Shown: positions 22,233 through 26,279, numbered from the stretch's first letter. The stretch: DNA of 64,000 nt from Chroococcidiopsis thermalis PCC 7203 (GCF_000317125.1 NC_019695.1:2902336-2966335); one strand, 5' to 3'. Notes: generated by a model from the letters alone, not told the origin. A program made the numbers and translations.

Positions 22233-25200
22233 TTATTTGTCGTTGCTAGCGTCGTGTGGTTTGCTTTGAGTCATTTGTCCGATTAACTCCAATACCCTTT
22301 GCTCGAATTCTTGAGGAGAGACTCGTCCTTTGGTCAGAAACTCCGTATGTCCTAGCTTGAGCCGATTTCGCTCCGACTGGTCGAGGTCTTTGGCAGAATA
22401 GACGACTAAAGGAATACTGTAAAGGCGATCGTGTTGATGCAGCCACTCAACGACACCAAATCCATCCACTTGAGGCAAAATTAGATCGAGAATCAGTAGA
22501 TCGGGTTTGATTTCTTGACTTAAACGAATTGCCTCGCGTCCATTTTTGGCAAGAAAAGTTTCAATATTATGACTTTTAAGCAGTGCGAGCAAAAGTTCGG
22601 CTAACTCGGCATCATCCTCAACCAGCAATACCCGGACTGGTCGAGCGTTTTTAGCCAGAGCTAGCTTGAGAGAGTCAAACAGCGAGTTTTCATCAACTGG
22701 CTTACTCACCCAAGCGCTCGAATTTTGACTGAGCGGACTCTGACTAGGAGCGCAAATACTACAAATGACGATGGGAATGTCTTTCGTATCCGATCGCTCT
22801 TTCAGCTTTGCCATTACCTCCCAGCCATTCATTTTTGGCATCAGCAAATCTAGTAAAATTGCATCAGGATGTAGGGTAGCAGTAGAGGCGATCGCTTCTT
22901 GCCCGGAATGCACGACGACCGTGCGATAGCCTTTATGCTCAAGCAAGGTTTGTAGTTCAGTCCCAACATGAGGATCGTCGTCACAGATAAGTATGAGGGG
23001 AGACGAGTCAGGAGTAAGGAGTGAGGGAGGAGTTAAAGAGTTATCTGCCTCGCGACTAGACTTAGCTTGTAGGATAGGCAGCGTAAAGTAAAAAGTACTG
23101 CCTTCACCCAGAACGCTTTCAACCCAAATGCGCCCGTCATGCTGTTGTACGATACTGCGGCAAATTGCCAACCCTAAACCAGTCCCATCATGCTTGCGGG
23201 AATCTGTTGAGTCAACTTGTTGAAATCGTTCAAATATACTATCGAGTTTGTCGGCTGGAATACCGCGTCCAGTGTCTTTCACTTGGAATGTGATATGAGG
23301 GGTGAGGAGTGAGGAGCAAGGAGCGAGGGGATCGGAGAAGTTTGAATTTTGGATTTTGAATTTTGGATTTTGGATGTCTCCCCCTGTGTTCCCAGCTCTT
23401 CCAGTTCTCTCTACTTCAGTTTCTCTCGCTCCTCGCTCCTCGCTCCTCGCTCCTAATTCCACACTCAACCAAACCGTACTACCACTAGGGGAAAATTTAA
23501 TTGCGTTAGAAAGTAGATTGGTGAGAGTTTGCACGATGCGGTCTGGATCTGCCCATACCTGGATCGGTAGGCTAGAAACAGATAAGGTAATTCCAGCTTT
23601 GTCGGCGAGAGGCTGCATCACGTTCACTGCTTCAGTTATCAACTCGGTAACATCGCAGCTTTCTTTTTCCATCTTCACCTTACCCGACTCGATCCGCTCG
23701 ATATCGAGAATGTCGTTAATCAAACGTACCAGGCGTTCGGTGCTATCGGTGGCAATTTGCAATAAGCGTTGTCCCTGCGGTGAGTCTGGCTGGAGTAAAC
23801 CACTAGCCAGCATTCCTAAAGAACCATGAATCGACGTTAAAGGCGTGCGGAGTTCGTGACTGACGACGGAAATAAACTCATCTTTCATCCGCTCGATTTG
23901 CTTGCGATCGCTCACATCATGCAAGTAAACCGTATATACTGTTTTTCCTCCCAAATTTAACTTGGAGATACTCGCCTCGGCAGGAAATTCAGTCCCATCC
24001 TTGCGGCAACCGTAAATTTCGCGTCGTTCTCCCATCCGGCGAGCTGAATTTGGGGATTGACCGAATTCATCTACGTGCTGACGATGTGCGGTAGCAAAAC
24101 GCATTGGTAGTAACAAGTCGAGCGGTTGTCCGATCGCTTCTGCTGCTGAGTAGCCGAATATTCTCTCGGCTCCAGAGTTAAACAAGGTGATGCGTTGATT
24201 GCTATCGATTGAAATAATCGCGTCATCGGCTATTGCGACGATTCCGGCAAATAAGGCTTGAGAATTTTGTAATGCTGCTTGGGTGCGCTGGCGCTCGTTT
24301 AACTCTGATTGGAGTTGCTCGTTCAACTTGCAGCGATTTTCGCTTTCGACATTGTTCGTTGCTCTGACTTGGTTAATCCGGTGTAGTAGTTTTATCCGCT
24401 CTAAGCGATTGACGATCCGAGTCACGAGTTCGGAACCCACGATCGGCTTACTCACAAAATCATCTGCACCAGCACTAAAAACCCGATCTACAATGTCGGC
24501 ATCGTGATGGACTGTCAAAAATAAAATTGGTAGATCGCTCCAGCGCGGCTCGTTACGTACCACCTGGCATAGGTCGATGCCATTAACATAGGGCATTTCC
24601 ACATCTAGGATCAACAGATCCGGTGCAGTGGCTTCTAAAGTTTCCCAGAACCGACGCGGATCTTCTAAAGTTGTCACTTTCAATCCCCAAGGATTGAGCA
24701 ATGCTGGTAACACTGCGAGGATTTTTGGATCGTCGTCCACAACAAGTAGATGAGCTTCTGCATGGGGTGCATTTTCTAATGCTTGCGCCACTGCATCTAG
24801 TACTTGTGCGGCAGGCATAGGCTTTTGCAAAAAGGTGCATCCACCACTACGAGCAATTTGCAGCCGATGGCTCAAGTCTGTTTGCTCGGTCAAAACTAGC
24901 ACTGGTACGGGTGGCTGACGCTGCTTCAGTTCCGCTAGCAAGCTCAAACTCTCTTCATGACGCGGACAGATATCAGGATCGAGCAGAACAATACTGGGAT
25001 GCTCTTGGTAAAGCTTGTTTCTAGCAGTATCGAGGTTATTAGCGATCGCGACCCTAAATCCTCTGTCTGTAGCTGCTGCGGTTAACTGTTGGGCGATCGA
25101 GCGTTCGCGATTGACTATCAGTAGCAATGGTTGCTCTGAATCTGCTTGTGGCTTACCTGCTTCTCCTTTCTGCTCAATTTCTTGACGCAGAGCCAACACT

Positions 25201-26279
25201 AGACGGCAAAAATTTGTTGCCTCAGATAGCAAGACAGCGCGATCGCCTTTTAGCATCTGCTCAATTTCTTTTGCCAGTTTCGATCCTTGCGCCAAGCCGA
25301 AAGTTCCTAACGATCCTGCTAGGGTATGCGCTTCTTTTCGTGCTGATTCGAGCAGTTCTGGAGACAAGGCATTATTTGCGCTGACAGCAGCAGATGCTTG
25401 CTCCAACACGCCAATCTGTTCTGCAATCCTGGGCTTAAATTTATGCCAAATTCCTGCAACTGCCGATAGTGTTGAGTGGTGAGTGGGGAGAATTCGGAAT
25501 TCGGAATTCGGAATTCGGAATGAGGAGTGACTTGTGACTTGTCTTGCTCCCCTGCTCCTCTGCCCCTCAGCTCCCTCAGCTTCCTCAGCCCCCTCAGCTC
25601 TCTTCTCCAAAGGCTTGAGACGATACCCAATGCCGTAGACAGTTTCAAGCAGATCGCTATTAGCTCCTGCGGCTTTGAGTTTTTGCCGCAATCCTTTAAT
25701 ATGAGTTCGCACGGCTTCTTCGCTGGGAAGGTCTTCATAAGACCAGAGATGTTCCAAGATCGTGCCGCAACTAAAAACGCGGCGACTGTTACGTAAAAAC
25801 AGCTCTAAAAGTGCGTATTCCTTGGGAGTTAATGACAAATGCTTTTGACGATAGGTTGCCTCACAACTACTCGGATCTAATTGCAAGTCGCCCCACTTTA
25901 GTACTGGCGGGGAAACTAAACCGCTACGACGCAATAGCGCTCGTACCCTTGCAACTAACTCTTCTTCATCAAAAGGTTTAATTAAGTAGTCATCTGCACC
26001 CGCATCTAATCCAATTGCCTTCTCATGGCTGCTATCTCGACCAGTTAACAATAAAATTGGCATTGACAAACCTTTAGCTCTGATTTGACGGCAGAGACTA
26101 ATGCCATCCAGTTTAGGTATGACGACATCCAGTACGATTAAGTCATAGTCGAAAGCTTGGACTAAATCCCAAGCAGCAAGACCATCGACAGCAACCTCAA
26201 CTGCATAGTTGTGGTTGGTGAGAACGGCAGTTAGTGCATGGGCGACTAACTCGTCATCTTCTACAACTAAGATTTTCAT
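22233..26279 (-). CDS. Multidomain hybrid regulator: REC-wHTH-Hpt-REC-REC-PAS-HisKA-HATPase-REC-REC
   Basis: A 1348-residue soluble protein that joins an OmpR-type response regulator to a full phosphorelay. In order: REC (1-118; D in [13 protein letters not shown]), winged-helix DNA-binding domain (about 128-222), repeat-coded linker (225-270), Hpt with H318 (AHTLAGSLG), a REC-like domain (about 383-500), REC (about 505-625; [13 protein letters not shown]), PAS (about 660-785), HisKA with H808 (SHELRTPL), HATPase (about 880-1060), REC (about 1095-1215) and REC (about 1220-1340). It lacks membrane spans. The protein can in principle sense, relay and bind DNA by itself. Three stretches, including one inside the HATPase domain (about 941-996), are translated tandem repeats. 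Confidence 0.92.
22996..23043. repeat. In-frame repeat insertion before the fourth receiver domain
   Basis: AGGAGTGA-like heptamers (GAGTCAGGAGTAAGGAGTGAGGG) are read on the minus strand as a serine/leucine/proline-rich linker ([14 protein letters not shown]) between the HATPase end and the REC domain. It sits at a domain border, so it is probably tolerated. Confidence 0.75.
23294..23458. repeat. In-frame repeat insertion inside the HATPase domain
   Basis: GGAGTGA, GATTTTG/GAATTTT and CTCGCTC heptamers occupy about 165 bp between the N-box region (VWLSVEL) and the G1 box ([13 protein letters not shown]) of the kinase. In ordinary histidine kinases this spot is a short beta-hairpin of a few residues. 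About 55 extra residues rich in R, E, S and N are translated in frame. Confidence 0.88.
25470..25608. repeat. In-frame repeat insertion between the winged helix and Hpt
   Basis: Four copies of GGAATTC (25491-25521) plus TGACTTG and CTCCCTCAG-type repeats are translated as about 46 residues ([21 protein letters not shown]) linking the DNA-binding and Hpt domains. The frame remains open throughout. Confidence 0.88.

Follow-up and report, generated by a model that had tools for sequence, protein, structure and literature searches.

A histidine kinase gene of the cyanobacterium Chroococcidiopsis thermalis PCC 7203 carries islands of tandem 7- and 9-bp repeats in its reading frame, one of them inside the ATPase domain. 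Very probably these are mobile cyanobacterial STRR islands that are translated unaltered, are tolerated where loops permit it and persist mainly when they keep the frame. The window analyzed here, a 64,000-nt stretch of DNA (GCF_000317125.1 NC_019695.1:2902336-2966335), lies on a replicon of 6,315,792 bp in a genome (G000) of 6.69 Mb and three contigs.

Repeat islands in a hybrid histidine kinase

The minus strand at 22233-26279 holds an ORF of 1348 aa, running from ATG to stop, that encodes a hybrid histidine kinase. Its membership in HisKA/HATPase_c is supported by the presence of the H, N, G1, F and G2 boxes and of the fold. The features discussed below are the following, with positions counted from the first letter of the window:

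22233-26279, minus strand: hybrid histidine kinase gene, REC - OmpR-type DNA-binding - Hpt - REC - REC - PAS - HisKA - HATPase_c - REC - REC (Pfam)
25470-25607, minus strand: island 1, predicted translated repeat island in the linker between the DNA-binding domain and Hpt, residues ~225-270, with the arrays GAATTCC (25490-25521) and 9-mer (25546-25600) (Tandem Repeats Finder, TRF; genus comparison)
23493-23519, minus strand: N-box NLLSNAIKF, residues 921-929, intact (sequence; invariant or near-invariant in alignment A2)
23297-23458, minus strand: island 2, predicted translated repeat island of 162 bp in the HATPase_c hairpin, residues ~942-994, with inverted 7-bp arrays at both ends (Pfam gap, orthologues, model)
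23425-23454, minus strand: 5' terminal arm of island 2, (GAGCGAG)4.3 (TRF; pairs with the 3' arm in the predicted hairpin)
23341-23375, minus strand: inner heptamer array of island 2, (ATCCAAA)5 (TRF, translation)
23297-23331, minus strand: 3' terminal arm of island 2, CTCGCTCCTTGCTCCTCACTCCTCACCCCTC, inverted repeat of the 5' arm (predicted hairpin, z -3.8)
23256-23276, minus strand: G1 box DTGRGIP, residues 1002-1008, intact (sequence; D and G columns invariant in A2)
22998-23069, minus strand: linker between HATPase and REC4, residues ~1071-1094, variable and partly repeat-like, with no insertion in this genome (shorter than in genus-mates)

Within the ORF, TRF reports GAATTCG (4.6 copies, 25490-25521) and CTCGCTC (4.3 copies, 23425-23454), both with 100% matches, together with TTTGGAT (5.0 copies, 23341-23375) and a 9-bp array of GCTCCCTCA (6.4 copies, 25546-25600). 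These arrays bear out an earlier sequence-only reading in which heptamer repeats run open through the frame of the kinase, except that its 'GGAGTGA', around 22998-23015, amounts to about two imperfect copies under the TRF threshold. The same reading correctly placed a repeat block between the N-box and the G1 box, which island 2 separates. Pfam splits the HATPase_c domain here, with its best stretch beginning at profile position 37, residue 995. The strand of island 2 folds better than 200 of 200 shuffles, and the two ends of the island match the same genomic sites on opposite strands. The sequence GGAATTCGGAATTC occurs 245 times in the genome, versus 0 for the reversed pattern.

Full-length orthologues are found in two other species of the genus, L090 (94% identical) and L091 (90%), from the genomes G002 (94%) and G001 (90%). 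Both have an in-frame insert at the same codon of the HATPase hairpin, and the ORF is full-length and in frame in all three species. Island 2 of G002 has 94% DNA identity to that of G000, with a dN/dS of 0.38 over the island, while the G001 site holds unrelated content that is 21 nt shorter. At island 1 the three species have three heptamers (GAATTCC, CAAAATT and GGAGCAG), each in frame. Outside the genus, the hairpin is short and normal in the Nostocales-type orthologues L009, L010 and L011, e.g. STVWLIAEQQGNEILLSIKDTG, with no insert, and an orthologue from the same order (L119 in G052) is likewise without it. No empty-versus-filled site was seen within the genus, and we therefore infer insertion from these more distant orthologues, relative to which the islands are, on sequence comparison, insertions.

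Three regions had been singled out for such a comparison. Residues 225-270 and 941-996 are indeed variable repeat islands, but residues 1079-1095 are no insertion, the linker near them being 36 nt shorter here than in two genus-mates. It had also been proposed that orthologues of equal length and unrelated sequence across the genus would point to a normal domain. G001 superficially shows this pattern; its cause, however, is island swapping and not a normal domain.

That a large repeat insertion breaks the catalytic domain, as Pfam reads it, could indicate a decaying pseudogene and a dead enzyme, as the first reading had considered. We find this highly improbable. dN/dS is 0.00-0.27 in the HATPase flanks (0.07-0.27 in other domains), which are, by this measure, under purifying selection; all boxes are intact, the ORF is full-length in three species, and an AlphaFold2 model (residues 795-1075) gives a confident HATPase core, mostly with pLDDT above 90, whose fold matches the solved kinases HK853 and YycG. 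In the model, strands 935-942 and 995-1002 flank residues 946-991, which have a pLDDT of ~40, suggesting that island 2 would form a flexible, mostly disordered loop. The simplest reading would be a working kinase, whose activity we infer, that has a tolerant hairpin tipped by a disordered loop. The proposal that the kinase folds around a ~55-residue loop is thus the best supported by the model among the options first raised.

Genome-wide arrays and the filtering of coding islands for frame

Perfect arrays with 3.1 copies or more were counted across 1.54 Mb of the chromosome, whose full length is 6.3 Mb. This census yielded 256 heptamer arrays, versus 0 in a first-order Markov control, and 49 nonamer arrays; other periods from 4 to 12 gave 0-6 each. 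Array density is 0.58/kb outside ORFs versus 0.06/kb inside, and 56 of the 1085 ORFs in the sample contain heptamer or nonamer arrays. According to Pfam, the products of these ORFs include CobN (six arrays), NAD synthase, DNA polymerase I, PEP carboxylase, MutL, a topoisomerase A subunit, CheB, CheA, a CobQ-type amidotransferase, queuosine synthase, ABC transporters and a penicillin-binding protein. The CobN islands lie at the same places in all three species of the genus with their contents changed, and several other members of the CobN family have short loops where the genus has islands. Neither the genome-wide presence of the repeats nor the involvement of the same hairpin in many kinases had been noticed in the first reading.

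On a given strand, stop codons are absent from 55% of intergenic heptamer arrays and from 63% of random heptamers, so that the open frame of a single heptamer array is weak to modest evidence. The earlier remark that an open repeat needs 'selection or luck' proves right on both counts: about half of the arrays are open by luck, and selection is seen in the keeping of the frame through turnover.

Other repeats were observed alongside. Three tandem 114-bp units, 95% alike, occupy 19877-20216 of the window, each with CAGTGAC heptamers and a GGGGCGGGTTT...AAACCCGCCC inverted repeat; a GGCGGGTTT/AAACCCGCC piece similar to one in these units is contained in the cobN island of G002. Repeats with a 15-bp period, of the ATGCCAACTTAGAAA type, lie at 10879-11239 inside the ORF 10697-11425 and resemble the coding sequence of a pentapeptide-repeat protein. 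The NAD synthase (G000:C1:53595-53675) and an FGGY kinase (131735-131767) have heptamer arrays in G000, where their G002 orthologues have a GGGGCGCACAGC(T/C)GTGCGCCCC palindrome instead. Different repeat types thus occupy the same coding site in the two genomes.

Island lengths were compared between G000 and G002 over ~450 kb of collinear DNA that is ~94% identical. Length differs at 21 of 23 coding islands and at 38 of 40 intergenic ones. The changes are multiples of 3 in 18/19 coding islands versus 11/38 intergenic islands (Fisher p 2e-6). The coding set was brought from 20/21 to 18/19 by dropping 1166842, which has stops and lies upstream of the true start, and 139011, which had been counted twice; dropping one further doubtful ORF gives 17/18. 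Coding islands were defined via ORFs open in G000, which partly builds in the missing stops there and leaves the length comparison with G002 unaffected. Island DNA thus appears to change equally fast in genes and outside them, with nearly only in-frame outcomes persisting. Such frame filtering indicates that the ORF downstream of the island matters; it says nothing on protein abundance or kinase activity.

Since excised sequence would need no frame keeping, the comparison speaks for translation of the islands in unaltered form. Removal of the island at the DNA, RNA or protein level, or expression only under certain conditions, which had been entertained for this kinase, is scarcely credible. 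The island DNA can form a hairpin, but nothing that we found supports removal. Lengths in threes and the absence of stops survive complete sequence replacement between species, although excision would make both unnecessary; the islands, whose contents differ between species, showed neither a conserved motif of a boundary, splice site or intein nor a clear duplication of the target.

A phase-variation switch, in which slippage of one 7-bp unit would toggle the kinase frame on and off, is suggested by the unit length itself, as 7 is not a multiple of 3 and an array that shrinks or grows by one unit, whichever of the three it is, brings an early stop, at residues 282-318 or 954-1016. The single out-of-frame exception in the comparison, a second GyrA/ParC-like gene with an ORF of 544 aa in G002 versus ~840, is out of frame at an island and also fits a switch. 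Yet the arrays are short (4-5 units), the species differ by island swaps, and multiples of 7 make up 1/21 of the coding length changes. The in-frame changes counted above, the intact frame of the kinase in all three species and the nature of the affected genes, mostly housekeeping enzymes, unlike classical contingency loci, make a switch very unlikely. The GyrA/ParC-like gene (L337, G000:C1:317542-318882; L338, G002:C1:332979-334319) is open in G000 and G001 and loses its frame in G002 at a CACACCC island. The other GyrA copy is intact, and the loss of frame may reflect a pseudogene, a misassembly or an 'off' state.

Recurrence and exchange of islands at the HATPase hairpin

Searching G000 with the HATPase_c profile, we obtained roughly a dozen domains that are broken between profile positions 33 and 38; ~ten domains are split in this way in G002 and two in G006, a genome from another genus. 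Repeat islands occupy the hairpin between the N-box and the G1 box in 15 or more histidine kinases, drawn from no fewer than three sequence classes (STVWL-, GGRVEV- and GSVTVRV-type). Because length partly guided the choice of the sample of 42, this figure is no measure of frequency. The islands bring the spacing between the two boxes from the usual 22-23 residues to 40-90. In a tree of 47 HATPases, with most of the hairpin left out, long hairpins need 10 changes, at least 5 of which are forced by well-supported branches; the tree labels as expanded L275, L276 and L278, whose long hairpins are without clear repeats and which are outside the 15. The kinase of the window clusters with its insert-free Nostocales orthologues.

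In three other G000 kinases (L235, L241 and L233) the HATPase domain contains a second repeat island immediately ahead of the GDxxRLQQ motif, which suggests another permissive site.

Islands at the hairpin have been replaced and copied. The flanks of a paralogue in G000 (L262) are 98% identical to those of L263 in G002, while the islands are 62% identical, i.e. unrelated. Over 159 nt, the L263 island instead shares 84% identity with the island found in the orthologue of our kinase, with flanks of 74-76%; judging from this alignment, an island was probably copied between paralogues at the same site. Relatives of island 2 over its full length occur at other sites in the three genomes, including one within a Cu-oxidase_4 gene. 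A 62-bp non-repetitive module, with a CCCCAC...GTGGGG palindrome and surrounded by GGGGACAAG nonamer arrays, has five identical copies (G000:C1: 125326-125387, 740021-740082, 1013096-1013157, 1093064-1093125 and 1279370-1279431) and about ten near copies in the 1.54 Mb, three inside ORFs. We looked for a target-site duplication at 13 copies of the island-2 type and found none that was consistent. As read from these comparisons, the islands turn over very fast between species, by wholesale swaps and by copying among paralogues and unrelated genes.

The recurrence of one hairpin across many kinases, with several sequence classes, could also mean that these loops are functional, tuning the kinase through ATP-lid, dimer or partner contacts and being kept for this purpose. 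The 94% identity and the dN/dS of 0.38 of island 2 between G000 and G002, despite the replacement of island 1 in the same gene, would agree with such a role. A permissive site predicts recurrence too, however, and orthologues have unrelated sequences of different lengths at the same place (G001 versus G000; L262 versus L263). The same repeats also occur in unrelated loops of other proteins, and the loop has no structure in the AlphaFold2 model. We therefore regard a selected function of the loops as unlikely.

Under the reading that we favor, that of mobile islands tolerated in permissive loops, dispersed STRR-type islands would consist of composite 7- and 9-bp tandem arrays, in the case of island 2 with inverted heptamer arrays at the ends. 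They would enter protein-coding genes and be translated by ribosomes into flexible, mostly disordered loops. The hairpin between the N-box and the G1 box, whose tip would point toward the solvent, would accept extra residues, the kinase staying active and the island being near neutral there. New islands with stops, a wrong length or a harmful site would be lost, which would account for the ten-fold lower number of arrays per kb in genes and for the repeated survival of islands at the same permissive hairpin. Copying might proceed by recombination or gene conversion between arrays, by slippage or by mobilization of the hairpin element.

Relation to known repeats and significance

The arrays share with STRRs their tandem 7-bp units of many types, dispersed, mostly non-coding and variable among close relatives. 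Heptamers of cyanobacterial STRRs have been placed inside the RNase P RNA gene (Vioque 1997, as cited in PMC4748335). In the genus, heptamers are present in L361-L363 around 1747-1810, which falls within the RNase P match provided that the flank has the usual 1500 bases. These rnpB-region heptamers (TCAGTTA in L361 and in L362, GTTGAGA/TCCCTAC in L363) differ between species of the genus. What sets the islands apart is that they are composites of 7- and 9-bp arrays, are in frame in ~5% of the sampled ORFs and recur at one histidine kinase hairpin. Similarly, the heptamer simple sequence repeats of Xanthomonas and Nostoc (PMC4692102) and the TAACTGA repeats (PMC4679880) are abundant in cyanobacteria and variable in length and sequence between close species; earlier surveys place heptamer repeats chiefly between genes and report that ORFs are depleted in them (PMC4692102, PMC4679880).

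Rickettsia palindromic elements (RPEs), of ~150 bp, are found in frame in many unrelated genes (a 2000 study, as reviewed in PMC10969869). Here, too, elements of about that length are in frame in many unrelated genes. One element family can recur in several such ORFs, as do the 62-bp module in its three ORFs and island 2, which is also hairpin-forming, with its relative in the Cu-oxidase_4 gene. In effect the islands might be said to act like RPEs, whether or not the two are kin. They differ in their cyanobacterial host and in their heptamer and nonamer arrays, the separation from RPE families being made on unit structure. They also show replacement of content at the same site between species, of which we found no report for RPEs in the part of that literature available to us. 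With MITEs the islands have in common that they are short and dispersed, with inverted ends (terminal inverted repeats are present in island 2 and several relatives) and no coding capacity of their own. Unlike those of MITEs, the inverted ends are tandem arrays of variable length; among the 13 copies inspected, no clear target-site duplication was seen. In the literature searched, which covered few subscription journals, we found no account of systematic in-frame translation of STRRs in cyanobacterial proteins or of an HATPase hotspot.

For the question of how cyanobacterial STRRs arise and spread, the genus offers a readable record, with islands replaced while their flanks are 98% identical, donors common to paralogues and unrelated genes, and coding sites at which selection acts as a frame filter. 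More speculatively, and with only a small chance of being right, STRR islands would be a class of self-spreading DNA elements for which protein loops are safe sites; their exchange would provide a standing diversification of kinase and enzyme loops in the genus, and the HATPase hairpin would be a hotspot where loop content modulates signaling. Essential-looking enzymes accept repeat-derived loops of 20-100 residues whose content changes from one species to the next, which amounts to a natural experiment on where protein folds are permissive. Loop sequences in cyanobacterial proteins should accordingly be interpreted with caution, as they can be translated repeat DNA.
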